DNA from: Anaerohalosphaeraceae bacterium
GTDB lineage: Bacteria > Planctomycetota > Phycisphaerae > Sedimentisphaerales > Anaerohalosphaeraceae
DNA: 34,260 nucleotides
Assembly (NCBI GenBank): GCA_030641315.1
Contig: DAOWHR010000210.1
Coordinates: 1 to 34,260, forward strand
Direction: 5' to 3'
Below the pieces are notes generated by a model. That model had not been told where the DNA came from, searched no databases, and saw only the letters and a program-made list of their open reading frames with translations. Positions 1,249-34,120 of this stretch are shown piece by piece. Numbering within the stretch: the first letter of the stretch is position 1; each line of letters starts with the position of its first letter. Made by a program: the position numbers and the translations under genes.

Positions 1249-4200
1249 GTGCTTAGAGACCCTTATTACAAAGACATTTTAGAGCGACTCAAAAAAAGGC
1301 TTGATCCAGAACTATTTGAAAGATGTGCGTGTGATTTGTTGAGGGGCATTTATCCTGGCTTAGTGCCGATTCGTGGTGGCAGTGATTCGGGTATGGATGG
1401 AGCTATCCCAGATACTAAAGGGAACGCATTTCCTTTAGTTAGTACAACGGAACAGAATGTAATTGGCAATATGACTCGCAGCCTTGAGTCATATCTATCT
1501 GAAAAGGGTGATAGAAGAAAAGTTGTTGTTGCTACATCACAAGAGCTAACACAAACAAGAAGACGGAACCTTGAAGTAAGAGCCAGTGAATTAGGCTTTA
1601 CTTTAATCAACGTTCACACTCAATCGGCTCTTGCAGAATTGTTGTATAACAATCCTTCATGGTGCAATGAACTGCTAAACCTTACAGGCAAACCTTTGGC
1701 TCTGGCAGTACTACCTAATTCTCGAAGACCATTGGTTTGTCGAACTTTAATTGGTCGTGAAGACGATATGCGTTGGTTGAGAGAAACAGAAGGTGACTTA
1801 TTAATTACGTCCCAGCCAGGTTGTGGAAAAACATTTTTATTGTACAGGTTTATTAAAGATAACGAAGGTTTATTTGTTATAGATGATGATATTACAGAAG
1901 TCAGCAATTGTATTCGTTCACAGCAACCTAAGATAATTGTCGTAGACGATGCTCATGTAAAATCTAAATTATTAATAAGGCTTAAAAGGCTTAGGAATGA
2001 GATAGGAGCCGATTTCAGAATATTCGCAAGCTGTTGGCCGAGTCATGTGGGAAATGTTTCTGCTGACTTAAACATATCATCGTCTTCATGTCGTTTTCTC
2101 AGTTTACTAACAAGATCAGATATTGTTAAGGTTATTAATGAGTGTGGAATAGGAGGTCCAAACCAACTCATATACTCAATAGTGGAACAAGCTGTTGGTA
2201 AAGCAGGTTTAGCAACAACGCTTTGCTATTTGTGTATAAATGGGGGTATTGACGAAGTTGCTACAGGTGATGCTTTATACAATGATACTCGGAGAACTTT
2301 CGAGAATATTGTTGGCGAAAAAGCTTTTCAGGCCCTTGCAGTTTTCAGCCTTGGAGGAAATGCAGGAGTTTCAGGTGAACAAGTCGCAAAAGAATTGGGT
2401 GTGTCTTTGTCAGATATCGAGACAATAACAACTCATCTAGCTGCGGGGGGAGTACTAGAAGAAGTGCATCAAAATAAAATCAGAGTTGTACCTAAAGACT
2501 TACGATTTATTTTGGTCAGGGAAGTTTTTTTCAAACAAGCAACGGTTTATCAATATAAAAAAATAATCTCAGGCATATCAAATAAAGCTGAAGTATTATT
2601 GACGTTGATAGGTGCAAAACACAGAGGAGCAAAAGTGCCAGATTCTTTTCTTCAAGAATTACTCAACGAAAGTTTTTCGAAAGATTTATGGGAAGAATAC
2701 GCATGGCTTGGCTCATCTGAATGCACTTGGGTTCTTGAGAATCATTCAGATAAAACAATAGAAATAACACATGCGGCGCTACGTCATGTTCCCGAAAATA
2801 TAATACCAGCACTTTTAAGCTTAGCTGTTAATGACGACAGGCAGCAGCATTCGTACCCTAGCCATCCAATGCGATTAATTGCAGACTGGATAAAATCTGC
2901 CAGGCCTGGACAAGGGGATGTTATAAAACGGCGTAAAATAGTATTTAACTGTTCAAGAAGTTGGGTGAATCAAGGAGGCGATTTCGATACAGGTTTCGAA
3001 GCTATGTGTGCTTCATTTTCTCCTTGCTTTAGTACATCAGAGACTGTTCCAGGTAATGAAATGGCATTTTCACTCCTGAATTCAGTCATTCTGAGGAGTG
3101 AGATGGAAGAAATACAGTTATTATGGCCGGAATTGCTAGGTTTCTTAATAAGCGGTCATGTTCAATCTTGGGAACCTATTCAAGGGCTTGTTCATGGGTG
3201 GCATTATCCTGGGCCAAGTTCTGACAAATTGTCCGAAAGTGACAGGAAGTACATGAAATCATTTGTTAGAAAGATGCTATATGATCTTAAAGATGTTGCA
3301 GAGAATCATCAGGGGATGCTTAGGTGGATTAAGGGATTTGCACGAGGAACTTACCGAATACATGTAAATATCGATCCTGAGTTTGAGACACTTTATCCTA
3401 TTCGAGAATGGAAAGATTGGAAAAGATTGGAAAAAGAAGAAAGGGTGCTAGTTGATGACCTAGCAAAGAAGTGGAGCCAAAAGAAACCATCTACAATTGT
3501 GCGAAAACTGTTGTCATTCAAAATGACTGCCGAACAAGCTGGTGAAAAATGGTCAAAATGGGTTCCTACGTTGCTTGATAATATTACATGTTCAACCAAG
3601 GAACCTTGCAAGTGGATAAAGTCATTTTTGGAATATGATGCAGATAGGAGTTACATTGCACCTTTTCTTCAACAGGCTATTGGAATAGATGAAACCGGCT
3701 GGGAGTTATATGCTCTTTTATGTTTCGCAAAGGAAAATTTAAAATACTCCATTGTTACAGTAGTGCTTTCAAGTAATAATCTTTCCGATACACTTTTTGA
3801 TGTAGTATCGAATTTATTAGATGAACTTGGAGAAAATGTCGGTGACATGTTTATGTATAACAAGATACCTGAACAAATAGTTAAAAAAATACTAAATCAT
3901 AGGAATAATCATATTTGTGCCGCTATTGCAGTTGCAGAATGGAAAAAAGAACCTGAGGGGATAATACATGACAATATTGTAGATGATTGGCGTGCTGGAA
4001 TACTTAAATGCTCACACGATTATTGGTGCTTGGGAGAAATTTTTAAAGCTGATCCATCTATTGCATTTGATTGGATGTTAGCACGTATCGAAGAAGATTT
4101 CAATGGCATATGGCAAATACTTGAACTTGATAGCGGACCTCTGACTGAAGCAATAGAAGTATTAGACCTAAAACAAAAAGAGATATTTATCAGAACTATA

Positions 4201-4593
4201 CCGAATGACTGGAAATATCGAAAACTAATTCGTTATATAGTCTCTGATGATCTTTATTTGTATAAAATTCTGCTTGGTTGTGACAAGATAAAAGCACATC
4301 ATTTGTCCCCTCTTAAAGGTTATCCCAATGACGTATGGGTTGATAAGGCTAAGATCGCATTGGATAATGGGCATGAAGAGGAAGATATTGTAAGTGCAAC
4401 AGTGGGGGTATCTATGTCATGGAGTGGAAATGATTCAGATATGTGGAAAAAATGGGTTGATAGTTTTGAGGGATTATTATCAGATTCAGATTGTCGAATT
4501 CGCAGGATTGGGGAGAAAGGTTATCAATACACAAATATGAAAATGGAACAAGCTCTAAAAGAAGAGCGACGAGAGAGTATTTATGGACGATAA
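1249..4593 (+). CDS. Large STAND-like P-loop ATPase with nuclease-like N-terminus; candidate defence protein
   Basis: An 1114-residue protein with three regions. Residues about 20-145 resemble the Mrr/PD-(D/E)XK-like heads of defence ATPases: a helix with FERCACDLL, then GGSDSGMDG (D50 as a possible metal ligand), a strand, a basic RRK segment and KVVVATS. The usual ExK is not evident; TTEQ stands about where it would be, so catalysis is uncertain. Residues about 165-345 form a P-loop NTPase: Walker A SQPGCGKT (188-195), Walker B IIVVDDAH (229-236), a later strand with FASCWPSH, and GLATTL (about 320-325) in the place of the STAND GLPLA motif. Residues 355-430 look like a winged helix. The rest is long and helix-rich with many W/L repeats, probably a solenoid sensor. 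The gene is visibly AT-rich against its neighbours and stands alone, which suggests acquisition. The family name is not certain; a fold of the novel-STAND type is my inference. Confidence 0.6.
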   Translation: MLRDPYYKDILERLKKRLDPELFERCACDLLRGIYPGLVPIRGGSDSGMDGAIPDTKGNAFPLVSTTEQNVIGNMTRSLESYLSEKGDRRKVVVATSQELTQTRRRNLEVRASELGFTLINVHTQSALAELLYNNPSWCNELLNLTGKPLALAVLPNSRRPLVCRTLIGREDDMRWLRETEGDLLITSQPGCGKTFLLYRFIKDNEGLFVIDDDITEVSNCIRSQQPKIIVVDDAHVKSKLLIRLKRLRNEIGADFRIFASCWPSHVGNVSADLNISSSSCRFLSLLTRSDIVKVINECGIGGPNQLIYSIVEQAVGKAGLATTLCYLCINGGIDEVATGDALYNDTRRTFENIVGEKAFQALAVFSLGGNAGVSGEQVAKELGVSLSDIETITTHLAAGGVLEEVHQNKIRVVPKDLRFILVREVFFKQATVYQYKKIISGISNKAEVLLTLIGAKHRGAKVPDSFLQELLNESFSKDLWEEYAWLGSSECTWVLENHSDKTIEITHAALRHVPENIIPALLSLAVNDDRQQHSYPSHPMRLIADWIKSARPGQGDVIKRRKIVFNCSRSWVNQGGDFDTGFEAMCASFSPCFSTSETVPGNEMAFSLLNSVILRSEMEEIQLLWPELLGFLISGHVQSWEPIQGLVHGWHYPGPSSDKLSESDRKYMKSFVRKMLYDLKDVAENHQGMLRWIKGFARGTYRIHVNIDPEFETLYPIREWKDWKRLEKEERVLVDDLAKKWSQKKPSTIVRKLLSFKMTAEQAGEKWSKWVPTLLDNITCSTKEPCKWIKSFLEYDADRSYIAPFLQQAIGIDETGWELYALLCFAKENLKYSIVTVVLSSNNLSDTLFDVVSNLLDELGENVGDMFMYNKIPEQIVKKILNHRNNHICAAIAVAEWKKEPEGIIHDNIVDDWRAGILKCSHDYWCLGEIFKADPSIAFDWMLARIEEDFNGIWQILELDSGPLTEAIEVLDLKQKEIFIRTIPNDWKYRKLIRYIVSDDLYLYKILLGCDKIKAHHLSPLKGYPNDVWVDKAKIALDNGHEEEDIVSATVGVSMSWSGNDSDMWKKWVDSFEGLLSDSDCRIRRIGEKGYQYTNMKMEQALKEERRESIYGR

Positions 4594-7270: not shown

Positions 7271-9214
7271 TCATATTTTCAGGCTCTCAAAATCCACATC
7301 TGTTCCAGTCACCAGGTAAACGTGATATTCGGCATATACTTTTCGAAAGAAACTGAAATGATTTTCATCAGTGCCACAATAGAAATCATTAACTGTATCT
7401 GGCGGCCCCAAGTATGATATAAACTGCCGCGGCACCATTCTTTTTAATGGATCCAAGTAAAGATAGCCTACCTGAGTTTTGTGTATCATACCCATGTATT
7501 CCATTTCTACACTCTTGTTTCGTACGTATTTATGAGAGTGATAATTAACTTTTCCGGGCAGATAGTCAAAATCCACATCTATAAAATAAACAGGGGGTTT
7601 ACCTTTATTTTGCTTTAGAAGTTCCTGTAAAACTTCAGGGTTAATAGTGTCACCGCTTTCAGGCCGGAACAAACCTGCACGCACAGTATAATGAATGTCT
7701 ACATGATCATTATTGTACAAACGAGTTTCTTCCATGTGCAATACATTTGTAATGACAACTGAATCTTTCGGTAAATTAGTTTGTATCCATTCTGAAATCG
7801 AACGAATCCCACAATACACTCCATTTGTTACTAATCGTGTTGAGTAAGCATGTATTATCTGGTCAGCCAAACCAATAACAATAATGCAAATGAAACCATA
7901 TACAATAAAAGATGGTATCTTTTTAGTTTTTCTGAGATTATTGTATAGCCTCCTCAAAACCAGTGAAACTATGATTGATGTCGGCAAAAGGGCATAAGCA
8001 AAATGTACTTCTTCCGTAAAAAGCCATAAGAAAGGAATAAAAAATGCCAGAAACCACACTGCCAAAAATACATCTTTGCGCATAGCTTGCAACGGATATA
8101 CAAAACATAAAAACAAATAGAACCAATTGTCATTATAGTCATGCTTTATGAGAGCGACTATCAGAAAAATTGTAAAGGCAAATGGAATATAATAATTAGC
8201 TAAATGCGACAAGGCATTATTTTTAAATCTTCTGAATATTTCACTCCATTGTCCCTGCAGCACAAGAAATTCAAAACCTTTCCATGCAGCAAAAATATAA
8301 TCTAATACAATTACTGCCAATAAGATTGGAGGTATCAGAGTTAAAAAATGAGGCGGTGCCAACCAACGTACAGATGAAATTAGTCTGGCAATACTAAATC
8401 CTCCGGCATCGGTACCAGCCGCCATCTGGTCGCCAAGAGAACCAAGAGCAAAAACAGGTTTCAGGGGCAAGTCATAAAAAACAACAATCTTGATAAGAGC
8501 AGTTGGAAAAACTGCGTGTAAGAATGCCAGGCAGCATGCAAATATAAGTAAATTAAAAACCTTTCTTTGCTGAAGTTCGAGTAAAATTATCAGAATTGGC
8601 AAAACCCCAATGAACTCGCGAAACCAGCAACCGAAAAACATTATAAAAAAGAGTAGCCCACCATACCGTTTTTTATGCTTTTCAGTTTCAAGTAATTTCC
8701 AGTAAAGAAGTAATCCTGAACAAATAAGCAGTGGGACAATTGCCTGAATGCCAGCAAAAACTATCCAGGAGCCGGTAATCATCGGTGCAGAAAAGATGAA
8801 TAACAAAACTGAAAAAACAGCCCAATTTTTAGATTTTAAAAAATGCTCAGATACTTTAAAAAATGTCACACATAACGCCCCCAGGATTAAACCGACCCCC
8901 AAAAACCAAGGGTACTGAATCATATCAGGATCAATAAACAGCATCCTTCCAAGGCAATCGATTGATGCACTTAAAGGCCTGTAGCCTGACGAAGTAGGAG
9001 AACTAAACGCAGTGTGCAATATTTTTGGTATTGTTGAAACGCCTTCCCAAGCCAAAGGTTTCGGTGTTTCAAATAAATTGTATACTAAATGAGGACTGTC
9101 ATCCCAAACAAAACCTGTGCCGCTTCGGTACCAAGTAAATGTTAAAGCAACTATAATTACAGCCAGAAAGCAATAAAGTTTATTTTTCATACCATCATGC
9201 ATTAACGGTCCCAT
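7271..9214 (-). CDS. Polytopic membrane protein, GT-C glycosyltransferase-like
   Basis: A protein of up to 647 residues; ATG codons at 9214, 9202 and 9190 are possible starts and none has a strong ribosome site. MKNKLYCF from the third gives the cleanest membrane start. After the first hydrophobic helix comes GFVWDDSPHLVYN with D38 D39, the position of the acidic catalytic motif in the first outer loop of GT-C enzymes that use lipid-linked sugars. About ten to twelve further hydrophobic segments fill residues 90-460. The last 180 residues are soluble and probably extracytoplasmic (VVITNVLHMEE, PPVYFIDVDFDY). This is the last gene of the operon, separated from the one before by 197 bp, unlike the tight spacing elsewhere. 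It is bracketed by the 65-bp direct repeat, so it may be a late addition. The sugar and acceptor are unknown. A role in adding a residue to a surface glycan or protein is inferred. Confidence 0.6.
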   Translation of the reverse strand: MGPLMHDGMKNKLYCFLAVIIVALTFTWYRSGTGFVWDDSPHLVYNLFETPKPLAWEGVSTIPKILHTAFSSPTSSGYRPLSASIDCLGRMLFIDPDMIQYPWFLGVGLILGALCVTFFKVSEHFLKSKNWAVFSVLLFIFSAPMITGSWIVFAGIQAIVPLLICSGLLLYWKLLETEKHKKRYGGLLFFIMFFGCWFREFIGVLPILIILLELQQRKVFNLLIFACCLAFLHAVFPTALIKIVVFYDLPLKPVFALGSLGDQMAAGTDAGGFSIARLISSVRWLAPPHFLTLIPPILLAVIVLDYIFAAWKGFEFLVLQGQWSEIFRRFKNNALSHLANYYIPFAFTIFLIVALIKHDYNDNWFYLFLCFVYPLQAMRKDVFLAVWFLAFFIPFLWLFTEEVHFAYALLPTSIIVSLVLRRLYNNLRKTKKIPSFIVYGFICIIVIGLADQIIHAYSTRLVTNGVYCGIRSISEWIQTNLPKDSVVITNVLHMEETRLYNNDHVDIHYTVRAGLFRPESGDTINPEVLQELLKQNKGKPPVYFIDVDFDYLPGKVNYHSHKYVRNKSVEMEYMGMIHKTQVGYLYLDPLKRMVPRQFISYLGPPDTVNDFYCGTDENHFSFFRKVYAEYHVYLVTGTDVDFESLKI

Positions 9215-9360: not shown

Positions 9361-9425
9361 ATAGAAGACAGGATACTGTTTCTGCGAATGGATGCGTTGG
9401 ATTGATCGTAACTATCGACCAGAAT
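9361..9425 (+). repeat. 65-bp direct repeat, copy 2
   Basis: Second copy of the sequence at 7001-7065, differing at six positions. It overlaps the last four codons and the stop of the membrane-protein gene that ends at 9412. Flanking sequence outside the 65 bp is not similar to that around copy 1. Confidence 0.9.
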
Positions 9426-11190
9426 GGACTGTCGCCGCAGGCGGTATTGTGTACAGTATTCCATGTTCTCCTTGTGCGATGACAGGAAGATCCAACGTCC
9501 ATCCGGTCAAAATATCCGTAATCCCAAATTCCTGCCTGATCTCCTGCCAGCGTTCGACCGTTCTATTTTCCCACAGTTGCCTGTACATATCCGGCGGGAT
9601 CTGGCTATGCAGGTATTCGGCTGGAGGTTCCTTTAACAAGTCTATCGAATAGACTTCAAGCAGGATATTATTGAATACTACAGTAGATTCAGGCGCATAA
9701 GTGAAAAAATTAACCGATGTCATATCGGCCAGGATGGGTCTTCTCGTTTTCAATTGAATCAGCGTGGAATCATGCGATGCCACCAATAGACCTTCTCTTT
9801 TCGATATCATGGCATAAAAAACATCGTTGGTCCAGTCGGCGAGTTTTTCACCTTTATAAATGTATTTCTTGAAATATCTTTCACGAGGCAAGTTGACAGC
9901 TAAATAAACTGGAATGAAAACAGCGAGCATCGCGGCATATCCAAGGGTGTTCTTTTTAACCGCGTAAAACTTATTTCTGTCAAAATTCAGACTTTTGTTA
10001 TACGCCAAGCAGAAAAGCCAGAGTATAATTATCGCAAAAAGAATGACTTGAACTTCTTCGTTACGGGCAAAGAAAGTCAGAATTAGAAAACCTACAAACA
10101 GTTTGCAGTTCAGTTCATAATCCCTGCATTTTTCTGAAACCAGACAACCTATAAGGCAGGCAGGCAATACGAGATTGCTTAGATTTACATATCGACCAGG
10201 CATTAATATCAACAAAAACGAAGGCACCTTTTCCGGCGGCAACTGAGTTATTAAGCCTGCAACCAAAGACGCAATACCCCACACCAGAATCAATCGGAAC
10301 AAAAACAGCAGCGAATCTTTGGCCTTAAACAATTTCATGCCTAAAAAAGAGGTCACAAGGCCGTAGAAACAAAAGATCAGACCGTAAATCCTGTCCGAGC
10401 CATCGGGGCCGGAGTACCCCCAAAACATTTTGATCCTGTGGGAACCCCAATATTTGACAAAACTGTCAAGATATCTTTTTTGTATTTCAGGGTCGATGGT
10501 TGGCAATTGGCGCATCAAATAAAATTGATAGCACAATAAAGCGAGGCTGATCAAAAAGCCCAACAGGAAACTTCGGTAATGTTTCCGTAGAATATTGCTG
10601 ACATAATCCCATTGAAACACCGCTGACAAACATATTGTAATTATAAGCCAGAATCCCATTGAGGCGTGAACGCAAGGGAGGAGGCCAAGAAGAAACAATG
10701 CTGAACTGTTTTTGTTATTTCCCAGCAAAGCTACGATCAGGACCGTAAGAGATAAACTTAAAATACCGTATGTATGAATCCTCCCCAATAGCCAGATAGG
10801 ATAGACCACTCCATAGCCAACATAATTAGCAAGATATACCAAAAGTACTCCAAGCAGCGATATTTTAACATTCCTGCCTATGGCAAAGATCAGCAATGCC
10901 AACCCCTGGAATGAGACCATGCCCAGCATACCTGAGATAAGAAATGAAATCGCCCTTTCCGAGACTCCCAGATGAAGCAGTGAGGCCGAGAAATGATTCA
11001 CCAATGTGAATGCTTTTAGATGATACATATAAAACGGGTTGTCCGGTGGATAGTTTACCAGGGAGGCTAAGACCTGACCCGTTTCGACACTGACCTGCCA
11101 TGTCACATTTGACAGGCCAAGGCAAAACCCCATTATACCTGACAGGAGGATCACATTACCGAACTCAGATCTTATTAACGGCTTAAGCAT
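9412..11190 (-). CDS. Large polytopic membrane protein of the glycan operon, GT-C-like
   Basis: A 592-residue protein whose ATG is separated by a single base from the stop of the preceding gene (TAA-A-ATG), so the two are translationally coupled. It has about eleven to thirteen hydrophobic helices through residue 420 and a hydrophilic C-terminal part of about 150 residues. The first outer loop (about 30-60) reads VNYPPDNPFYMYH, with acidic and aromatic residues as in GT-C transferases, but I see no clean DD or DxD motif. A later loop carries QLPPEKVPSF and MPGRYVNLSN. I cannot assign a family with confidence. O-antigen polymerase or ligase-like, or GT-C transferase, are the options given its place beside two other giant membrane proteins and polyprenyl-type glycosyltransferases. 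The stop codon lies inside copy 2 of the direct repeat, so the exact C-terminus may have been changed by the event that made the repeat. Confidence 0.5.
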   Translation of the reverse strand: MLKPLIRSEFGNVILLSGIMGFCLGLSNVTWQVSVETGQVLASLVNYPPDNPFYMYHLKAFTLVNHFSASLLHLGVSERAISFLISGMLGMVSFQGLALLIFAIGRNVKISLLGVLLVYLANYVGYGVVYPIWLLGRIHTYGILSLSLTVLIVALLGNNKNSSALFLLGLLPCVHASMGFWLIITICLSAVFQWDYVSNILRKHYRSFLLGFLISLALLCYQFYLMRQLPTIDPEIQKRYLDSFVKYWGSHRIKMFWGYSGPDGSDRIYGLIFCFYGLVTSFLGMKLFKAKDSLLFLFRLILVWGIASLVAGLITQLPPEKVPSFLLILMPGRYVNLSNLVLPACLIGCLVSEKCRDYELNCKLFVGFLILTFFARNEEVQVILFAIIILWLFCLAYNKSLNFDRNKFYAVKKNTLGYAAMLAVFIPVYLAVNLPRERYFKKYIYKGEKLADWTNDVFYAMISKREGLLVASHDSTLIQLKTRRPILADMTSVNFFTYAPESTVVFNNILLEVYSIDLLKEPPAEYLHSQIPPDMYRQLWENRTVERWQEIRQEFGITDILTGWTLDLPVIAQGEHGILYTIPPAATVHSGR

Positions 11191-11191
11191 T

Positions 11192-14140
11192 TTATTCGAC
11201 CCCTGATCCTCTATGGTCCATCACTTTTCCACCTTTTTCTGCCACGAGCCTGAAACCAAGATGTTCGTGCCTGAAATCCACGGGGTAGTTTGTCTGCAAT
11301 TCAGCGAAATCGCTGCACCGATCACGCCAGCTTCCTCCAAAACATTTACGAGGTGTATCCTCTAAGCATTTGACAGGCGAATCATTCTGTATGGGTGTAG
11401 AGGTCCACTCCCATACGTTGCCGATCAGGTCGTTGGGACATCCCGGTGTGGCTCTAAAACTGCCTACCGGATTGGTTCTTTCCGAAGAATTCGATATATT
11501 CCATGCATACTTATTGATCTGTTCCTGAGTGGGTTCATCTTCAAAATCACTTTCGAGCCGCTCTGCGAGAGACATGTATTCGTCAATAGTCGGCAGACGG
11601 TAAACCAGAGTTTTGTCGTTTTGGTTAAGAATTTCTATGAACCTCAAAACATCAAGATACGAAACATTTTCGACGGGAAACCTGTCGTTAATAAATCTGC
11701 TCGGATTAACATCCATAACTCTTTTCCATTGCTGCTGGGTCACTTCAGAAATACCAACCATCAGTTCATTTCCTGCTATCCGATAATTGTCAAATCCGAT
11801 CCCGATGTAATTGTAAAGATCAGCCGAAGCATTACCATTATCGTGATCAGTTTCCACCTGTACGTCAATTGTTTGACCACTGAAAGCCGAATAGATCAAT
11901 TTTTCTTTTTGATAATCATATTCAAGGATATATTTAGGTGAACTGTTGTCAATGTACCTGTTAAACAAGCCATCGATGCAGGTTTCGTGATACCATCCAA
12001 ACGCATGAATCTCCGGACAGCGGTCCAATATCCTGATCGAAAAGTCATTTTCGGTTTCGTGCTGATGTATGAAGGTTCTGGTGGAATCGTAGTAATTCTT
12101 TAGCGAAGAAGTCTGTCTGCTAACTTCCCTACATATTTGAAAGCTTATGCAGGAATGGTATAGGATCAATATTGCGAGACAACTTGTCAAAACCAAATAG
12201 GAGTTGAATTTCAAAAGCTTGTCAAAATCTATCATCATGTAGACAAGATAAAGCAACAGAGCTGTAAGGCAATATGAATAATGCGTAAAAATCACATGGT
12301 TCGACAACCTTGTATCAATCATTGCTGCCCGTCCAAGACACATCAGGCCACTGATACTCAATAGTATTAAGACCACCATCAATGCATTGGGATCAATTTT
12401 GACCAGATACTTTTCTTTTCTCCTAAAGATAATTATCAAAAGAAATGTGGTGACAACTATTCCAAGAGCAGTTACCTGAAAGACGACTTTATCGGTATAT
12501 TGGGCCTGGCCCCAAAACGGGAAGATCAATGTAGAAAAGACAAACAGTAGCATTTTGAAGACATTGAGAATTGGTGCGAATAAACCGATCGATTCAGACT
12601 GAACGGTCATAGCCAGGTTCGGGTAGGCAAAATACAGGTGAACAAGAAGAAGAATGAACCAAAGAAGAAATGGGCAAAGCAGCCATACAAAGCTGGCCTT
12701 ATCTTTTTGTCTGCGTGCGGGATCATTCGGTTTTCTGAATAAGAGCCAATATGAAACGAACATAACAGCAGGGACAGGGAAAGCAATCTCAGTACACAGG
12801 AGATTAAGAAACAACAGCAAAGACAATAACAAAGTGCCTGCTTTGACAGTCAACTGATCATCATTAATTTTACGAAAAACTATTATCGACAGGATCAACA
12901 GCAATGTTGTTAGAATATAGCCGTCCATGTGCGGCCAGATTACGGCATCAATTTTTGTGACCGCGACAGCAAAAAGCAAGGCGATGAGGAAAGAAATTTT
13001 TCTTTTGCTATGCTGAAGCATCAGGGCCAGGAAACAGAAAGTTGTAATAATGTGTTTCAAAACAGTGGATATATGGCCTGCAACGTAAGATTCACCAAAA
13101 ACTACCCTGTTAAATGCCAGCATCCCATGATGTAAAGGTCTGAACATCAAACGGTCATAAGGCAGGTGAAGCTGCCAGTCTATGTGGCTAAGGAAGAACT
13201 TAAGTCCCGTAGGCTCATCTTTTGATGAGAAGAACAGGAACCAGTCATCGTGGCGAAACAAATGAGAAAAACTCGGCCAATAAACCGCTGCTGTTAATAG
13301 AGAGAGCGTTACTATTGAAAAAACTTTTGCGGATATCGTTATCTTTTCCTCTTCAATAAACAACTGATGTGTTTTTTCCTTAAAGAAAGGAATATAACCT
13401 GAGTGGAAGAAAATTTGCCTGAAAACAAAAACCGGCAACAATAACAAAATGAACGTTGTCCAACTTAGGAAAGGCCGTGCAATGACAGCATAATACCCTG
13501 AGGTTAAATTCACAATCAGAACGATCACAAAAAACAGACAGAGATAGAAAATTATACCACGTTGGAGAGGTGATGCTTTAAATTCGCTTTCAGCCGCATC
13601 AATCTTAAACTTAATGATGGAGAGCAGAAATAGGCCTGACGCTATTCCCACAGCATAGATCAACCAGTTCCCAGAAAGCCATTTGTCGTCTTTAAATCTT
13701 AGAAAGAGCCTGGCAGTGTACGCTTTTCTGTAATTATAAGCATAGATAATACATTTTGCTGGTTGTTCCCGGTCAAACGAAACTTCCAATTTGTTATTGC
13801 CATCGTGAACAAGCCCCGAATCGACAAAAGCATAGACACGTTTTTTTCGGTTCACTTCATTAAATGTTATTCTATCAACATCCAGCGTCTTGCCGTTGAG
13901 CTTAACAATTGAAGGCCAGGCATCATTGTCACCTTTGTATGCTATTTTCATTACATAAGAATCTTTCTCCATGAATAACAAGGTATCGATCTTATGCGAG
14001 ACAGGATGGGTCAGCTTATTAAATTCGACCGGTGAGAATTTCTTCGCAGACATTATATAGCAAAAGACACTGATAAAACTTACGTAAGTCAAAAATAAGC
14101 ACGTTATCAGGGTAGATTTTTTTTTCAAGAAATATGACAT
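11192..14140 (-). CDS. GT-C-like membrane protein fused to a C-terminal FGE-sulfatase (SUMF1-like) domain
   Basis: A 982-residue protein in three parts. A membrane helix (9-30) leads into an outer beta-rich domain (about 35-150). Many transmembrane helices follow (about 156-680), with FRHDDW (296-300) placed like the acidic motif of GT-C glycosyltransferases. The last part, about 794-968, is clearly an FGE-sulfatase domain: EVTQQQW, NPSRF, PVENVSYLDVLRF, YRLPT, GNVWEWT (907-913), FGGSW (934-938) and LGFRL (961-965). In true formylglycine-generating enzymes two Cys follow the GGSW-like motif. Here that stretch has D and F at those places and one Cys offset, so oxidation of a sulfatase is unlikely. 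Many FGE-fold domains bind or modify other substrates. The domain should lie outside the membrane with the C-terminal tail. I know of no standard family with this layout. Gene spacing to both neighbours supports operon membership. Confidence 0.75.
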   Translation of the reverse strand: MSYFLKKKSTLITCLFLTYVSFISVFCYIMSAKKFSPVEFNKLTHPVSHKIDTLLFMEKDSYVMKIAYKGDNDAWPSIVKLNGKTLDVDRITFNEVNRKKRVYAFVDSGLVHDGNNKLEVSFDREQPAKCIIYAYNYRKAYTARLFLRFKDDKWLSGNWLIYAVGIASGLFLLSIIKFKIDAAESEFKASPLQRGIIFYLCLFFVIVLIVNLTSGYYAVIARPFLSWTTFILLLLPVFVFRQIFFHSGYIPFFKEKTHQLFIEEEKITISAKVFSIVTLSLLTAAVYWPSFSHLFRHDDWFLFFSSKDEPTGLKFFLSHIDWQLHLPYDRLMFRPLHHGMLAFNRVVFGESYVAGHISTVLKHIITTFCFLALMLQHSKRKISFLIALLFAVAVTKIDAVIWPHMDGYILTTLLLILSIIVFRKINDDQLTVKAGTLLLSLLLFLNLLCTEIAFPVPAVMFVSYWLLFRKPNDPARRQKDKASFVWLLCPFLLWFILLLVHLYFAYPNLAMTVQSESIGLFAPILNVFKMLLFVFSTLIFPFWGQAQYTDKVVFQVTALGIVVTTFLLIIIFRRKEKYLVKIDPNALMVVLILLSISGLMCLGRAAMIDTRLSNHVIFTHYSYCLTALLLYLVYMMIDFDKLLKFNSYLVLTSCLAILILYHSCISFQICREVSRQTSSLKNYYDSTRTFIHQHETENDFSIRILDRCPEIHAFGWYHETCIDGLFNRYIDNSSPKYILEYDYQKEKLIYSAFSGQTIDVQVETDHDNGNASADLYNYIGIGFDNYRIAGNELMVGISEVTQQQWKRVMDVNPSRFINDRFPVENVSYLDVLRFIEILNQNDKTLVYRLPTIDEYMSLAERLESDFEDEPTQEQINKYAWNISNSSERTNPVGSFRATPGCPNDLIGNVWEWTSTPIQNDSPVKCLEDTPRKCFGGSWRDRCSDFAELQTNYPVDFRHEHLGFRLVAEKGGKVMDHRGSGVE

Positions 14141-14204: not shown

Positions 14205-14909
14205 TCATCTCCAACAAAAGCATTCCCTGATGAACTGAAAATAGTATGCCGCTCCCCATCGTAAAATCTGTAATTTTCTTTCGCCTCCTATCCTTTCTGG
14301 TTCATCTGCCGGGATCTCAGTGATCTTAAGTTTCTTCTTGGCAGCACGTACAGAAAGCAACGGTTCCCAGCTTATCTTGGTTCTGAACAACTTTTCAGCG
14401 GTTGAGTATGCCTCATCAGTGTGCAGCTCCAGGTCATAGATCAACTGAGTCCTGTAAGCCCTAAGAATGACCATCACATCGGTATAGCTTCCGCCGTGTA
14501 AAATATTTACGGTCCTGGTAAAGAGCCAGTTGCCAAAACTTGTGATGAAATCGTCGTCATCACTTTTTGCGTCCTGCAAATACCTTGAGCCAATTACCAT
14601 GTCATATCCTTCTTTCATCTTGTCACACAGTTGGGGGATGGCTTCAGGGACGCTGTTACCATCGGGGCTGAAAGTTACAACAACATCCCCTTCAATATAT
14701 GGCAACACTTCATTGTAGGCATGACGAAAGCCTTTTTGTTTCTGAACATACACAAAATATCCCTGGCTCTCTGCGTATTCTACGGTTCCATCTGTAGAAC
14801 CGCCATCAAGAATAATAAGCTGATCATACCATTGTTTCTTTATCAAAGGCATAATAGCCTTCATTCCATCAATTTCGTTTAGAGTCGGGACGATCAAAGT
14901 GATTTTCAT
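14205..14909 (-). CDS. Family 2 glycosyltransferase (dolichol-phosphate mannosyltransferase-like)
   Basis: A 234-residue soluble GT-A fold protein. It opens with ITLIVPTLNE and the nucleotide-binding LDGGSTDGT (34-42). The usual DxD region reads FSPDGNS (80-86), as in the DPM1-like branch, and MVIGSRYL follows. There is no membrane helix, unlike the next gene upstream. Such enzymes move a sugar from a nucleotide, usually GDP-Man or UDP-Glc, to polyprenyl phosphate on the inner face. The product could feed the GT-C-like proteins encoded just downstream. GAGG lies close before ATG 14909. Donor and acceptor are inferred from the family and context only. Confidence 0.8.
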   Translation of the reverse strand: MKITLIVPTLNEIDGMKAIMPLIKKQWYDQLIILDGGSTDGTVEYAESQGYFVYVQKQKGFRHAYNEVLPYIEGDVVVTFSPDGNSVPEAIPQLCDKMKEGYDMVIGSRYLQDAKSDDDDFITSFGNWLFTRTVNILHGGSYTDVMVILRAYRTQLIYDLELHTDEAYSTAEKLFRTKISWEPLLSVRAAKKKLKITEIPADEPERIGGERKLQILRWGAAYYFQFIRECFCWR

Positions 14910-14988: not shown

Positions 14989-15942
14989 TTAATCGTCCTC
15001 GTCTTCGATACCTAATTTGCTTTCAATTATATAAGGCGGTCGGTTTTTCATCTGCTGGTGCATATTGCCAAGATACAAACCCAAAATGCCGATGGTAAAC
15101 AAAATCGTCCCGCTAAGAAACAGCATTGTAACCATGATCGCAGGCCAACCCGGCTGATGCATATCGAAAAAGACACGGGATATAACGATATAAAGCAAAT
15201 AGCAGAAAGATACTATAGATACCAGAAAACCAATTACCAGCGAATAATACAAAGGGACATCCGAGAAACCTGTCAAACCTCGTATAAACTCCCTGGTTGG
15301 ATTGACGGAGCTGAAAAGTGAGAACTTAGTCTTGCCTGCACGTCTTGCGAGCCTTTCATAGTGAACCTTTGTTTGTTTGAAACCAATCCACCTTACAAGA
15401 CCCCGCATAAACGGATCGTATTCATTAAGCCTTATAAGCTGATCTACCGCACGCCTTGAAAGCAATTTGAAATCACCAGTGTTCTCCGGGATGTCTATAT
15501 CCGAAACAGAATTGATTATTCTGTATGCCCTTTTGGTGAGCCACATTTTAAGCGGATTTTCGCCAGCCCTTTTAGTTCTTGTAGTATGAACGACATCGAA
15601 GCCCAGTTCGTATTTTTCCAAAAGTTCGGGTATCAATTCAGGAGGATCCTGCAAGTCTGCATCCATGTATACCACAGCATCACCTTTTGCATGACGAAAG
15701 CCGGCCATCACACATGGAGATACACCGAAACGCCGTGACATATTAATGATCCTGATCTTTTTATCGGTATCGGCGAAACTCATCAGCAACTCCAGCGAGC
15801 TGTCTGTAGAAGCATCGTTTACGAATATCAGCTCATAATCAAGCTCAAGCGGATCGAGCGTATTTCGCAAACGCTCGACCAAAGGTTTCAAAACATCCTC
15901 TTCGTTTCGGAATGAAAATATAACAGACAACAGCATAATCAC
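14989..15942 (-). CDS. Polyprenyl-phosphate glycosyltransferase, GtrB/ArnC-like, with C-terminal membrane helices
   Basis: A 317-residue protein. The GT2 domain has VNDASTD (41-47), MDADLQDPPE (93-102) and the later GDFKLLSRRAV, typical of the GtrB/ArnC/DPM branch. Two hydrophobic helices (about 230-256 and 265-292) anchor it, and the tail is acidic (EDEDD). It should load undecaprenyl phosphate with a single sugar on the inner face, for flipping and use by GT-C transferases. That fits three such candidates in the same operon. The start is ambiguous: GTG 15942 has AGGGA 4 nt before it, while ATG 15936 lies two codons on with 10 nt spacing. Confidence 0.85.
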   Translation of the reverse strand: MIMLLSVIFSFRNEEDVLKPLVERLRNTLDPLELDYELIFVNDASTDSSLELLMSFADTDKKIRIINMSRRFGVSPCVMAGFRHAKGDAVVYMDADLQDPPELIPELLEKYELGFDVVHTTRTKRAGENPLKMWLTKRAYRIINSVSDIDIPENTGDFKLLSRRAVDQLIRLNEYDPFMRGLVRWIGFKQTKVHYERLARRAGKTKFSLFSSVNPTREFIRGLTGFSDVPLYYSLVIGFLVSIVSFCYLLYIVISRVFFDMHQPGWPAIMVTMLFLSGTILFTIGILGLYLGNMHQQMKNRPPYIIESKLGIEDEDD

Positions 15943-15987: not shown

Positions 15988-17457
15988 CTATATACAAGCA
16001 TATTTTCTCTCAAGCTTTCTGGAAGTCATTTTATTTATATAATCAACGGTTTTATCTCCGAACTTCTTACGCATCATGGCAAGGTACCTTGGGCTCTTAT
16101 GATATGCCTCGAATGCATAGTCCCTGAAAGCAAGTACCTGTCCGCCGCTTAAATATTTCGTCGGCAACGGCTGAGACTCGTAGCCATACTGAGAGTAGCC
16201 ATGCCACGTATCCGGCAGCTGCCAATTATTTTCCAACGCGATGTCGAACAGCTGCGACCCAGGAAATGCCATTGCGCTGTATATGTTAGCATACTCGGCG
16301 TTGATATCGAACATCAACGTGAGGGTTTCATTCATCGAATCATAATCGTCTTCCGGCAAGCCAAAGATATAGTTCGCACAAATATAGAATCCGAGATCAT
16401 AACTCAATTTTACCACATCCTGAACCTGCTCCATTTTGTAGCCTTTTGTGACATCGTCGATAACTCTTTTGCTGCCGGATTCAAAACCGTAGGCAAGCCA
16501 GTTAATCCCTGCCTGCTTCATTTTAACCAGCATCGGCTCGGTAACAGTGTTTACCCTGGCGTATGCCCACATGTTAAGGTCATATTTTCTTTCTATGATC
16601 TTATCGCACAATTCAACGACGCGTCTTTCATTCATCGCAAACATTTCATCGCTGATCTTGATATTTCTTATGCCGTAGCTGTTGACAAGGAAATCGATCT
16701 CATCGACCACATCATCCGTGCTTCTATAACGAATCGTGTTTTTACCAAACAGTGCGTTTATGCAGCAAAAGCTGCACTTAAACGGGCAGCCGAGGCTGGT
16801 ATAAATGACCGCATAGGGACTTCTATTGTCGATGTCATCAAAGCAATGCCAGTTATGTGCCCGATATTTATCCATTGGCAGCATATCCCATGCCGGCTGG
16901 CCGACAACGCTTAAGTCCTGCATAATAGCAGGCCTTGGATTCGACACGATGCTTCCATCCTGTTCGTAAATGAGTCCTTCTATCTGATAATTGTCCCCAT
17001 TGTTCCTGAGTACGTCAATCAATTTCGGTATTGTATGAAAGCCTTCCCCCTGACAAACAAAATCCGCCGCACTTTCTTTTGCTGTTCGTTCAGGCAAGGC
17101 ACTTGGGTGGAGTCCTGCCAACATAGTTTTGATATGCGGGTCCAACTGTTTCAAGGAGGATATTATCTCATCGGCCCCTGACATATTCATTGTCGAAGCG
17201 GAAGGATTGGTCCCCGAGACAACGACAACTGCAAGGTGAGGTTTTAGATACTGAATTTCCTTTGCGGTATCTTCATGCGAAAGGTCCTGTGCCTCCTCAT
17301 CATAGAGGACTACCGAATAACCAAGCCCGCGTAAATATCCAGCCAATATAGCCGACCACAACGGAGGTTCGATCGCGGTCAGTTCAAAATCATTCAACTG
17401 ACCATAAATGAGCTTTCCGCTTGCCGGTTTTATCAATGCAATATCAATCCTGCGCAT
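15988..17457 (-). CDS. B12-binding-type radical SAM enzyme of the glycan operon
   Basis: A 489-residue protein. Residues about 6-150 form a cobalamin-binding-type Rossmann domain. The radical SAM domain starts near 215, with C224-PFK-C228-SF-C231 binding the 4Fe-4S cluster, and later shows ISDEMF, YGFESGS and IFGLPEDD. The N-terminal domain lacks an obvious DxHxxG, so cobalamin, if bound, would be held base-off without the His ligand, as is usual in this class. Members of this architecture methylate or rearrange unactivated carbons. Here, between a sugar 3-dehydratase and glycosyltransferases, a C-methylation or ring change of a sugar, or a lipid modification, is plausible but not shown. GGAAAGG lies 6 nt before ATG 17457. 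Confidence 0.85.
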   Translation of the reverse strand: MRRIDIALIKPASGKLIYGQLNDFELTAIEPPLWSAILAGYLRGLGYSVVLYDEEAQDLSHEDTAKEIQYLKPHLAVVVVSGTNPSASTMNMSGADEIISSLKQLDPHIKTMLAGLHPSALPERTAKESAADFVCQGEGFHTIPKLIDVLRNNGDNYQIEGLIYEQDGSIVSNPRPAIMQDLSVVGQPAWDMLPMDKYRAHNWHCFDDIDNRSPYAVIYTSLGCPFKCSFCCINALFGKNTIRYRSTDDVVDEIDFLVNSYGIRNIKISDEMFAMNERRVVELCDKIIERKYDLNMWAYARVNTVTEPMLVKMKQAGINWLAYGFESGSKRVIDDVTKGYKMEQVQDVVKLSYDLGFYICANYIFGLPEDDYDSMNETLTLMFDINAEYANIYSAMAFPGSQLFDIALENNWQLPDTWHGYSQYGYESQPLPTKYLSGGQVLAFRDYAFEAYHKSPRYLAMMRKKFGDKTVDYINKMTSRKLERKYACI

Positions 17458-17486
17458 CCAGGGCCTTTCCTTATTTAAAACATGTA

Positions 17487-18656
17487 TCAGACATTATTCA
17501 GCATTTGACACAGGGCTTTGATTCGGTGTTCTTCCAAGACCGGGTAATTGCCGATGTAGTAACCATAAAAGTGAACATGTTCAACATGCGGGTACTTTAA
17601 CCACTGATCCTTAGCAACGATGTCTTTAAGATAAGGCTGCCTCATCTGATTTCCGCCGCCGCTGCTTCCCCTGCGGAACTCAACGTTAGCATCTGTCATG
17701 GCTTGTTCCAGTCTTTCACGAAAAACGGGATCCTGTTTTTTCAGGATCAGATTAAACGCATAATTACAGCTGCCTTCCAGATCGAAATCCGTTCTGAATT
17801 TTTCCGAATCAAGGTTATCAAGGAAGCACTTGAGATTCTGTCTGCGTTTTTCGTTATTTTCATCAAGCCTTTTCAGCTGAGACAAACCAAGAATACCGCC
17901 TATCTCGTTACCTCTGACATTATATGCGGGATAGGCGAAAATAAAGTCAGGACTGAGGTCCGGGTTTGAGTCGATGAACTGCTGTTTGATTTTTTCGTCG
18001 GTTGCTTCACGCACCATTCCGTGTGAACGCATCATACGTGCCATTTGATACACGTTTTCATCATCGGTACAGATCATTCCGCCTTCGATAGTGCTCATGT
18101 GATGAGCGAAATAAAATGAAAAGTTCGAGATCAGCCCGAATGAACCTAACCTTTGCCCTTTAAAAGTTGCGCCATGCGACTCACAGACATCTTCTATAAG
18201 AGGGATGTTTTTATCTTCCAAAACCTTCAGGAGCTTATCGCTTAGTCCGTTAAATCCCTGGACATAGGTCATAAACACAGCTACGGTTCTGTCTGATATT
18301 TTTGAGATAACCTCATCTTCATCCATGCAGAGGTTTTTCGGATTGATGTCGACAAAAACAGGTGTTAAGCCGTTTTGAATAACGCTGGCAATATCTGAGA
18401 CCCAGGTCAAAGTAGGAACGATAACCTCGCCGGAGCCAAAAAGATGCTTTATTACAGACATCGTAACAAGGTTTGCAGAAGCACCGGAATTAACATATAT
18501 GCTATGTTTAACGCCGACCCATTGCGACCACTGCCGTTCAAATTCTCTGACTTTTTCCGACTGCGTCAGCCGGGGCGTATTTGAAAGAAAATCCCTGAGG
18601 ACATCCAGGTCCTCCTGAGGAATATTATTTACCATCAAGGGCCAATCCAGTTTCAC
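17487..18656 (-). CDS. ColD-like PLP/PMP-dependent sugar 3-dehydratase (DegT/DnrJ/EryC1/StrS fold, Lys replaced by His)
   Basis: A 389-residue fold-type I PLP enzyme. The overall sequence is that of sugar aminotransferases (VNSGASANL, EDVCESHGATF, YNVRGNEIGG), but the stretch that normally holds the PLP lysine reads SFYFAHHMSTIEGG. The second His (residue 186 here) takes the place of that Lys. This exchange marks GDP-4-keto-6-deoxymannose 3-dehydratase (ColD) and the related DdhC/E1 enzymes, which use PMP to remove the 3-hydroxyl. I do not see the extra Cys set expected for an iron-sulfur E1, so the ColD route fits better. The expected product is a 3-deoxy-4-keto sugar nucleotide. I start at GTG 18656, which has AAAGGAG 7 nt upstream. 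An ATG at 18674 is open but lies upstream of that ribosome site. It follows the transketolase pair, which suggests that both act on one sugar. Confidence 0.85.
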   Translation of the reverse strand: MKLDWPLMVNNIPQEDLDVLRDFLSNTPRLTQSEKVREFERQWSQWVGVKHSIYVNSGASANLVTMSVIKHLFGSGEVIVPTLTWVSDIASVIQNGLTPVFVDINPKNLCMDEDEVISKISDRTVAVFMTYVQGFNGLSDKLLKVLEDKNIPLIEDVCESHGATFKGQRLGSFGLISNFSFYFAHHMSTIEGGMICTDDENVYQMARMMRSHGMVREATDEKIKQQFIDSNPDLSPDFIFAYPAYNVRGNEIGGILGLSQLKRLDENNEKRRQNLKCFLDNLDSEKFRTDFDLEGSCNYAFNLILKKQDPVFRERLEQAMTDANVEFRRGSSGGGNQMRQPYLKDIVAKDQWLKYPHVEHVHFYGYYIGNYPVLEEHRIKALCQMLNNV

Positions 18657-18663
18657 TCCAGCA

Positions 18664-18670
18664 CTCCTTT
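18664..18670 (-). promoter_or_regulatory. Ribosome binding site choosing GTG 18656
   Basis: AAAGGAG on the minus strand lies 7 nt before GTG 18656. An in-frame ATG at 18674 is upstream of it and has no comparable site of its own, so the shorter protein is preferred. Confidence 0.65.
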
Positions 18671-18698
18671 GCATAAACTGACAAATCCTGAAAATATT

Positions 18699-19676
18699 TT
18701 AATTAAAAGTTTTCGACAACTCTGTTTTATTATTTACGGCACTTAGCAGATGCTTCTTTGAAAGCGATGCCTCTTCGTGTATTACATCTCTGCCGCCCGA
18801 TTTAAATATGTATTTATCGGCAAATCCGAGACTTTTCAGCTCAACGTTCAGACCCTTGCGGCCTAGAATACTCCGCATCAGGCTGTCGAGTCCTCCTCTG
18901 TCCTTAAAACCCTCTTCAACAGTAAATATCCTGGTGTATTTTTCGAGTTTTTCAGCCAGTGTATCTTCGTCCGGCGCCAAATTGAATATATCTATCAGGC
19001 CGACATTATGTCCCTGCTGCGAAAGTTCATTAACGATCTCCAGTGCTTTATGTGTCATGTATCCGGTTGAAACAAAACAACTCTCATCGCCTGAAGCAAG
19101 TTCGTTAAAACCTTTTTGCCAATTTATTTGATCGCAGCTCATGTAAATATTGGGCAAGGGTTTTCCGTCAAGCCTGATATACTTGGGAACGTTGCATTCG
19201 ATGGAAAAATCCACGAACGACTCAGCGGTGACCCAATCACAGGGACTGCACGAGACAATATTTGGAAGTGTTCGCATAATCGAAATGTCTTCGAGGCAGT
19301 GATGAGTCGGCCCAGCGACATCATAGCTTACGCCTGCACCTACCCCGACAAGATTGACATTTAAACTTCGGTGCTGAGCTGACAGAGCCAGATTGACCCT
19401 GATCTGCTCATAAGCTCTCATCGACAAAAAGCCCGTAATCGCATAAGCGTAAACAATGAAACCTTCTCCAGCCAGACCGGCAGCGACGTTTACAAGATTT
19501 TGCTCTGCGATACCGACATTGATAAATCTTTCGGGGAAATCCTCCCTCAGCTTGTCAAGTGAAGGGGCGCCGAAATCGGCCGCGAGAAAAAATATCCTGT
19601 CATTGTGAAACATCTTTTCGTAAACAGCTGAAATGATGGCATCTCGCATTGTCTTAACAGATACGGTATCGTTCAT
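18699..19676 (-). CDS. Transketolase C-terminal subunit (split transketolase)
   Basis: A 325-residue protein carrying the pyrimidine-binding and C-terminal domains of transketolase. VGIAEQN (54-60) includes the Glu that activates thiamine diphosphate, and GPTHHCLEDI (about 125-134) is the usual substrate/cofactor loop. The C-terminal domain begins near 195 with an STGYM segment. Its ATG overlaps the stop of the N-terminal subunit gene (ATGA, 19673-19676), a strong sign of coupled synthesis and a two-chain enzyme. A housekeeping transketolase is normally one long chain. A split pair embedded in a glycan operon probably serves sugar synthesis, either by making a C7/C8 keto-sugar phosphate or by adding a two-carbon unit to an activated keto-sugar. 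Which of these is inference. Confidence 0.88.
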   Translation of the reverse strand: MNDTVSVKTMRDAIISAVYEKMFHNDRIFFLAADFGAPSLDKLREDFPERFINVGIAEQNLVNVAAGLAGEGFIVYAYAITGFLSMRAYEQIRVNLALSAQHRSLNVNLVGVGAGVSYDVAGPTHHCLEDISIMRTLPNIVSCSPCDWVTAESFVDFSIECNVPKYIRLDGKPLPNIYMSCDQINWQKGFNELASGDESCFVSTGYMTHKALEIVNELSQQGHNVGLIDIFNLAPDEDTLAEKLEKYTRIFTVEEGFKDRGGLDSLMRSILGRKGLNVELKSLGFADKYIFKSGGRDVIHEEASLSKKHLLSAVNNKTELSKTFN

Positions 19677-20488
19677 TTCATTTTCTCCAGTATCTCGTCG
19701 ATCCTGTCAGGTTTAAGAGTCATAACATGACTCATTGGATGGTCCTGAAGGCCTTCAACGCCATTTCCTTTTCGCGTGTTCGCTATCAGGGCCTTGGGCC
19801 TGTTATTGTCATTTGTTTTAAATAAAGTCAAAGCAGAAATTAATTGCTCGATATCATGCCCGTCAACCGAAGCAGTCTCCCAGCCGAAAGCTTTGAATTT
19901 AGAGTCAAGCGGATCCAGTGCCATGATATCCTTCTGATACCCGAGCATGGAAATCTGATTGTTATCTACAATAAAAACGAGGTTATCCAGTTTGTGACAT
20001 GCAGCAAACATAACACCTTCCCAGACAGCGCCTTCATTGAGTTCTCCGTCACCACATAAAACATATACTTTTGAATCAAGATTTTTTCTCTTCAAAGCGA
20101 TAGCTACTCCGCAGGCTACTCCGAGGCCGTGCCCCAAAGAACCGTTGATAGTTTCAAAACCTGGAACGGCAGTATCGGGGATCACACACAAGAATGAATC
20201 TTTCTGGCCGACGTTTTCGAGTTCTTCTTTCGCGAAAAAGCCCAGATCGGCCAGAATGGGATACATAGAAACCGCCCCATGTCCCTTGCTTACAATAAAT
20301 CTGTCTCTGTCTTGTGAAAATACATTTTGCGGGTCATAATTTAATATCCCACCATAGTACAAGGCCACAAATGTTTCAATGTCGGAAAGGGATGAAGCGA
20401 TCCTGGACTCAGGGGCAAGTTTGTGTATCTTCAAAGTCTCAGCTTTTACCCATTTGGCCTTTTCTTTAAGTTTTTGGATGTCATTCAT
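19673..20488 (-). CDS. Transketolase N-terminal subunit (split transketolase)
   Basis: A 271-residue protein equal to the diphosphate-binding domain of transketolase. It shows SKGHG (67-71), GSLGHGLG (116-123) and the thiamine diphosphate motif GDGELNEG (146-153) with DNN (175-177) about 27 residues later. It stops before the pyrimidine domain, which the next gene supplies, so neither gene is a truncation. AAGG lies about 7 nt before ATG 20488. Upstream is the sugar kinase gene, 36 bp away. Confidence 0.88.
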   Translation of the reverse strand: MNDIQKLKEKAKWVKAETLKIHKLAPESRIASSLSDIETFVALYYGGILNYDPQNVFSQDRDRFIVSKGHGAVSMYPILADLGFFAKEELENVGQKDSFLCVIPDTAVPGFETINGSLGHGLGVACGVAIALKRKNLDSKVYVLCGDGELNEGAVWEGVMFAACHKLDNLVFIVDNNQISMLGYQKDIMALDPLDSKFKAFGWETASVDGHDIEQLISALTLFKTNDNNRPKALIANTRKGNGVEGLQDHPMSHVMTLKPDRIDEILEKMK

Positions 20489-31281: not shown

Positions 31282-31322
31282 AGAAACCACCCCAATTGGT
31301 GAATAACAATAAACAATTAATA

Positions 31323-31358
31323 GCAATTGCCCCGGTACATACAGTCCGGGGCAATTGC
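31323..31358 (-). terminator. Strong intrinsic terminator after the PEP-CTERM gene
   Basis: A perfect 13-bp stem (31323-31335 with 31346-31358) encloses a 10-nt loop. On the minus strand it is followed by TATTAATTGTTTATTG. It lies 25 bp past the stop of the PEP-CTERM gene and before the ribosome site of the next, so the two genes are probably separate transcripts. Confidence 0.8.
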
Positions 31359-31382
31359 TTCTCTAAAATCTGACAAAACTAA

Positions 31383-32012: not shown

Positions 32013-32102
32013 TCGTACCTCCACAAAATAAATAGTTATAACCGACAACATATCGGCTAATTTATGAAAACATCATGCAGGCTACGCATCCTGCACTAAA
32101 AC

Positions 32103-32137
32103 CGGTCTGCATCCGACTCATCGCCAAATGCGGACCG
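32103..32137 (-). terminator. Hairpin after the PA14 protein gene, probable terminator
   Basis: CGGTCTGCAT (32103-32112) pairs with ATGCGGACCG (32128-32137) at nine of ten positions. On the minus strand it is followed by GTTTTAG. It lies about 60 bp past the stop of the gene ending at 32199. A second small stem, GCAGG/CCTGC, follows it at about 32077-32094. Confidence 0.5.
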
Positions 32138-32198
32138 ACTTTAATTGTCAAACTACCCATTACTTATACATAGCTGCTACATCGTCAGGAGACAATCT

Positions 32199-34037: not shown

Positions 34038-34120
34038 TTTCATTGCCTCCAAAAAATAATATTTCATTTTAATCTGTCCTTAATTAATTTGCTGACAATA
34101 AGGTCTAACTGCCTTCGGCA

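Follow-up and report, generated by a model that had tools for sequence, protein, structure and literature searches.

A GT-C-like membrane protein of Planctomycetota with a lectin-like FGE-type end that may recognise its sugar acceptor

What would an FGE-type domain do at the end of a protein that crosses the membrane many times, and is the join between the two parts genuine? The question is raised by a gene in a 34,260-nt stretch of contig DAOWHR010000210.1 (assembly GCA_030641315.1), from an Anaerohalosphaeraceae bacterium (Planctomycetota); this whole stretch is called the window below. The gene reads from 14140 to 11192 on the minus strand, the strand being a detail that an earlier note on this DNA had left out, and forms an open reading frame of 982 aa with an ATG start and no internal stops. 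As that note had claimed, an FGE-type domain is carried by a polytopic protein: the PF03781 match is preceded by about 15 membrane segments, as counted from hydropathy and positive-inside charge. The gene and its parts are as follows.

11192..14140, minus strand: whole gene, GT-C-like membrane protein with a C-terminal FGE/CLec domain, 982 aa (open reading frame; homologues L002 and L155)
13676..14044, minus strand: N-terminal periplasmic all-beta domain, aa 33-155, weakly conserved at 21% identity (predicted model)
13337..13675, minus strand: three extra membrane segments ahead of the GT-C core, aa 156-268 (hydropathy, positive-inside count)
12137..13336, minus strand: GT-C-like core, aa 269-668, about 11 TM (relatives' alignments, positive-inside count)
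13241..13252, minus strand: HDDW, aa 297-300 (HDEW in L155), catalytic Asp motif of the first outer loop (alignments; M1 of PMC7801869)
13136..13144, minus strand: FRP, aa 333-335, equivalent of the (SHKSY)RP motif M2 (alignments; PMC7801869)
12788..12793, minus strand: TE, aa 450-451, equivalent of KE in motif M4 (alignments; PMC7801869)
11906..12046, minus strand: conserved outer segment, aa 699-745, between the last TM and the FGE domain, 72% identical (alignments)
11237..11803, minus strand: FGE-type C-type-lectin-like domain, aa 780-968, non-catalytic by FGE criteria (Pfam, PDB sequence match, AlphaFold2, Foldseek)
11306..11338, minus strand: GGSWRDRCSDF, aa 935-945, site of the FGE Cys pair, here D940 and F945 (homologue alignments)

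The join was judged real, and neither a chance event nor a misassembly, because two further proteins are homologous to this one through both parts. A pattern scan of GTDB genomes, which matches exact peptides and which diverged members would escape, returned L002, encoded on a 2.27 Mb contig of a Planctomycetota MAG; it aligns with residues 5-968 of the window protein at 38% identity, across both parts. When 148 genomes of the order to which the window genome belongs were searched, the L002 genome came up a second time, with identical contig coordinates and assigned to another family within that order; the search also yielded a third member, L155 (genome G818), which is cut by a contig end, aligns with window residues 219-968 at 43.75% identity and is 61.6% identical to L002. 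At that contig end, L155:9720-9765 is Illumina adapter read-through (GTGACTGGAGTTCAGACGTGTGCTCTTCCGATCT), which translates to VTGVQTCALPI at the start of the truncated homologue. The earlier note had allowed that the parts might usually be separate genes and their join an isolated event; this was examined and the contrary was seen, all three members found being fused (3/3), and no split or unfused ortholog appeared in the 148 genomes of the order, 89 of L155's family, 298 of L002's class or 392 of the phylum. An assembly error or an isolated fusion is thus ruled out by two fused homologues, one of them on the 2.27 Mb contig. No further GT-C/FGE fusion was present among the long GT-C open reading frames examined by Pfam or by reading of the C-terminus, nor was any of the 29 top FGE relatives a polytopic fusion, each having at most two TM segments. 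Since fused homologues are few and unfused orthologs are absent from these samples, the fused family is real but rare.

The nature of the outer domain is clear from several lines of comparison. PF03781 (FGE-sulfatase), the sole Pfam domain found on the protein, scores 68.3 bits over aa 795-966 (E 1.1e-18), where the cut-off is 23.3, and this score above the curated cut-off, together with the FGE-type fold, places the domain in the PF03781 superfamily. The SUMF1-like fold that had been read from the letters is borne out by this match and by the presence of GNVWEWT (907-913), GGSW (935-938) and GFR. Profile positions 65-254 of 255 are covered, the first ~64 columns being without a match. An AlphaFold2 model of the domain, built on an alignment of 34 sequences (the window protein, L002 and relatives from viral contigs), reached a pLDDT of 89.9 and a pTM of 0.87, and is complete and compact with a short first hairpin that recurs in several viral-contig FGE-like proteins. 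A truncated, dead FGE remnant, which the partial coverage of the profile would fit, is excluded by this complete, compact model and by 47% conservation between homologues. The best sequence matches among solved structures were the DGR variable protein TvpA (1.2e-7) and the FGE paralogue SUMF2, and a Foldseek search of the PDB with the model returned TvpA (3.1e-11), CarF (1.9e-10), PvdO (2.8e-8), human FGE (1.6e-7) and the type IX secretion protein PorK (2.6e-7), with a probability of 1.00 for TvpA, PvdO and FGE. Pfam scans of 19 window proteins detected no reverse transcriptase, which together with a template repeat is the mark of a DGR variable protein. CLec is a general ligand-binding fold, and in CLec-fold DGR proteins the ligand site is formed by the C-terminal stretch (PMC6328139). 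As for conservation of residues in homologues, which the earlier note had asked for, W938, R939, T950-P953 and F956-E959 are invariant in all three members; they fall within this C-terminal stretch, and by analogy with those proteins they may line a pocket in the window protein.

At the positions of FGE Cys336/Cys341 (GGSY-x-C-x4-C), the window protein has D940/F945, just as the Asp and Phe of the earlier reading, L002 has D/L and L155 has N/L; none of the three members carries the catalytic Cys pair of a functional FGE. The emphasis that had been laid on this loss was misplaced. The pair is also absent from 26 of the 26 other relatives with a readable motif, at least one Cys position being substituted in each; a missing pair is therefore usual in this branch of PF03781, and a special meaning of the loss is excluded. 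Judged from its residues, the FGE/CLec domain appears to be one in which FGE chemistry was lost or never present. Type I sulfatases carry at their nucleophile site a Cys that is to be modified. The window encodes a sulfatase-fold protein with C-terminal TPRs at 24577-26652 (minus strand), in which TLPAH stands at the nucleophile site, apparently with Thr for Cys; activation of this sulfatase by the FGE-type domain is unlikely, given a domain that lacks the Cys pair and a target site that seems to hold Thr.

The membrane part was read through its relatives. In its core (aa ~270-500) it is similar to GT-C proteins of the TMTC/PMT-like kind from Planctomycetota, and a two-sequence profile of the pre-FGE part gave GT-C-like matches in 42 other genomes of the phylum, with a best E of 9.7e-11 and mostly within about 290-520; the relatives examined mostly end in C-terminal TPR repeats, and some have weak PMT or PMT_2 matches. 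In TMTC proteins, motif M1 is DD (DE in some active GT-C enzymes, as D55/E56 and D77/E78), M2 is SHKSYRP, and M4 is KE, the Lys of which is said to bind the donor phosphate (PMC7801869). Alignment to the relatives puts the first-outer-loop HDD on DD, FRP on YRP and TE on KE. The catalytic Asp expected of a GT-C enzyme in the first outer loop is present in all three members (HDDW, HDDW and HDEW), and the HDEW of L155 shows that D and E both occur at the second position, whereas the first Asp does not vary. At the M4 position, Glu is kept and Lys is replaced by Thr in 3/3 members, a departure from TMTC that counts against reading the protein as a GT-C transferase. With TE for KE in every member and an FGE domain where TPRs would be expected, the protein falls outside TMTC (GT105). 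No curated GT-C model, in Pfam or NCBIfam, reaches its cut-off on the window protein, which is therefore filed as GT-C-like rather than under a named GT family, and the membrane part matched nothing in a profile search of the PDB. The connection to GT-C is thus made by way of distant relatives, which weighs against the transferase reading. The GT-C-like assignment made earlier stands on a core that aligns with TMTC/PMT-like proteins and keeps Asp and RP.

The outer location proposed for the FGE domain was likewise supported. Over the 15 TM segments, K/R per residue is 0.22 in inner loops vs 0.071 in short outer loops, which places both the HDD motif and the FGE domain outside; because the segmentation was hand-set from hydropathy and the TMTC model, this charge topology is supportive rather than independent proof of an FGE end that would face the periplasm. 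A polytopic core with its motif loops outside is likewise read from hydropathy and the positive-inside count only. The full-length AlphaFold model, built on two sequences, has a pLDDT of 36.5, and in the predicted model the N-terminal beta domain has eight strands at low confidence (pLDDT about 45-70), with no usable Pfam match. Conservation between the window protein and L002 is highest in the first outer loop with its catalytic Asp (74% identity), followed by segment 699-745 (72%), the FGE domain (47%), the TM core (37%) and the N-terminal domain (21%). A view of the FGE domain as a passive appendage is disfavoured, because 47% is kept there vs 37% in the membrane core.

The genes upstream are as follows.

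14205..14909, minus strand: GT2, AglJ/polyprenyl-P hexose synthase-like, putative donor maker paired with the GT-C gene (profile matches)
14989..15942, minus strand: GT2, PgfS/GtrB/ArnC-like polyprenyl-phosphate sugar synthase, member of the conserved cluster (profile match, synteny)
15988..18674, minus strand: B12-type radical SAM protein and DegT/RfbH-like aminotransferase, common to the L002 and L155 clusters (profile matches, alignments)

The GT2 at 14205-14909, upstream of the GT-C-FGE gene, shares 56% identity with the GT2 that immediately precedes the L002 gene, and the radical SAM protein and aminotransferase are common to all three clusters, with 53-70% identity to those of the window. 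The same cluster was found in genome G763 (L164), with epimerases, a nucleotidyltransferase, a GHMP kinase, a split transketolase, the aminotransferase, the radical SAM protein, the PgfS-like GT2 and a 592-aa membrane protein; there the PgfS-like GT2 directly precedes the 592-aa gene, and neither the AglJ-like GT2 nor the GT-C-FGE gene is present. Because both are missing from this otherwise syntenic cluster, the two were taken as a two-gene module. To judge from the sequences, the pair behaves as a donor synthase and the transferase that it supplies should. In genome G708 (L163), a GT2 with 76% identity has another membrane protein next to it, and this change of neighbour, together with the absence in L164, suggests exchangeable donor/transferase modules. 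No flippase gene was seen within the 34,260-nt window.

Other features of the window were recorded alongside. A split transketolase (N and C halves, 18699-20488, minus strand) lies beside the aminotransferase and radical SAM protein and is kept in L164 and L165; such a cluster may make a branched or unusual sugar. Two more polytopic proteins without Pfam matches are encoded at 7271-9214 and 9412-11190 (both minus strand), the former with WDD and YRPL motifs of GT-C type. Three paralogous secreted proteins (28276-34067, minus strand) have in common an N-terminal domain of ~200 aa that is 51-67% identical; one has a PEP-CTERM end and another has a methyltransferase domain inside it. On the plus strand, 1249-4593 encodes a protein of 1114 aa, possibly of defence type, that weakly matches nSTAND3 NTPase, and 64-1134 begins as a PurQ-type glutamine amidotransferase (aa 2-63) and continues as an ABC-F-like ATPase without its first half, which has the appearance of a deletion or a misassembly close to where the contig begins.

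Taken as a sequence-based reading, the window protein is probably a membrane enzyme that attaches sugars outside the cell membrane, and its outer FGE/CLec end most likely aids recognition of the sugar acceptor. The account that we favour, with somewhat better than even confidence, is that of an extracytoplasmic GT-C transferase in which the TPR tail is replaced by a non-catalytic lectin-like domain for acceptor recognition. What we infer for catalysis, donor, acceptor and the role of the FGE domain runs as follows: the neighbouring GT2 would load polyprenyl phosphate with a sugar in the cytoplasm, a flippase would turn the charged lipid outward, and the GT-C core would transfer the sugar in the periplasm by means of the Asp of the first-outer-loop HDD/HDE motif. 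Segment 699-745 would tether the FGE/CLec domain over the active site, where the domain, in the place held by TPRs in most relatives of the core and by a CBM in GT136, would bind the acceptor, a surface glycan or a protein, and so set specificity or processivity. That the ligand of the domain may be the growing glycan or a protein acceptor, as the earlier note suggested, remains the best inference.

Other readings of the same evidence concern either end of the protein. The FGE-like domain could be a structural or partner-docking module, serving oligomerisation or anchoring the transferase to an envelope complex, with acceptor choice left to the GT-C core by itself; a Foldseek hit, PorK of the type IX secretion ring, has this fold, and many relatives are single-TM or soluble proteins. 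We regard this as unlikely, since the domain covaries with the transferase and donor synthase as a two-gene module and occupies the C-terminal position where other GT-C enzymes have TPRs or CBMs. Very unlikely, in our judgement, is a second enzyme that would act on the sugar or acceptor, by oxidation or some other modification, with no need of the FGE Cys pair: the fold is common to non-FGE enzymes and pathway proteins (PvdO, EgtB, OvoA, CarF, ToxD and CalU17), and W938, R939, T950-P953 and F956-E959 are invariant, but the Cys pair is absent and a metal or catalytic set was not recognised. The chemistry of EgtB and OvoA requires an additional domain, which is absent from the window protein.

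The membrane part, for its own, might be a sensor, a ligase accessory or a flippase-like protein of GT-C ancestry rather than an active transferase, as the change of the M4 Lys to Thr and the GT-C family models, all below cut-off, would allow. Against this stand the catalytic-Asp first outer loop as the best-conserved stretch (74%), the DE for DD of the third member, a variation known from active GT-C enzymes (PMC7801869), and the pairing with a GT2 donor synthase, so that we hold a non-transferase to be quite improbable. Should the transferase reading be true, a ligand-binding fold known best from FGE and hypervariable DGR proteins would serve as the acceptor-recognition arm of a membrane glycosyltransferase, offering a concrete place to study acceptor choice in a phylum with little-studied surface glycans; if the two-gene module is exchangeable, it would provide a route to altered surface decoration. 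A broader proposal, which we put forward tentatively and at less than even odds, is that of a GT-C class in which an FGE-type CLec domain replaces the TPR or CBM tail and selects the surface acceptor, its GT2 and GT-C-CLec cassette being carried between planctomycete glycan clusters and altering their decoration.

The earlier statement that the combination is not a described family is consistent with the libraries and literature searched, in which no published description of GT-C with FGE was found, but GT-C enzymes with an extra C-terminal acceptor-binding module are known as a kind of architecture (GT136 ORF12, Emb/AftD, and TMTC with TPRs). What appears to be new is the FGE/CLec domain as the accessory module of a GT-C transferase. 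The fold is shared, by sequence and Foldseek, with TvpA (2y3c), SUMF2 (1y4j) and PvdO (5hha), and TvpA-type CLec domains are ligand binders; unlike the window protein, these are soluble or single-domain and none is joined to a polytopic transferase, and hypervariation was not seen in the window protein. With the TMTC/PMT clan (GT105-like), the protein has in common the DD/DE first outer loop, the RP motif, the Glu of KE and a C-terminal outer accessory domain, whereas it has FGE/CLec for TPRs, Thr for the Lys of KE, four extra N-terminal TM segments and a beta domain. The mycobacterial arabinosyltransferases Emb/AftD, compared by published description, are also GT-C enzymes with outer domains, of CBM type rather than FGE/CLec and in other GT families (PMC11127046). 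GT136 ORF12 of Citrobacter youngae is a GT-C enzyme whose C-terminal CBM binds the unmodified acceptor polysaccharide backbone, within a three-component periplasmic glycosylation system that uses a polyprenyl-phosphate donor (PMC11127046). Compared by its architecture as published, ORF12 differs in that its extra domain is a CBM and its donor synthase comes from another family, but it shares the GT-C core, the donor synthase encoded nearby and the extra C-terminal outer domain, and it is the closest functional precedent for an acceptor-binding outer module.
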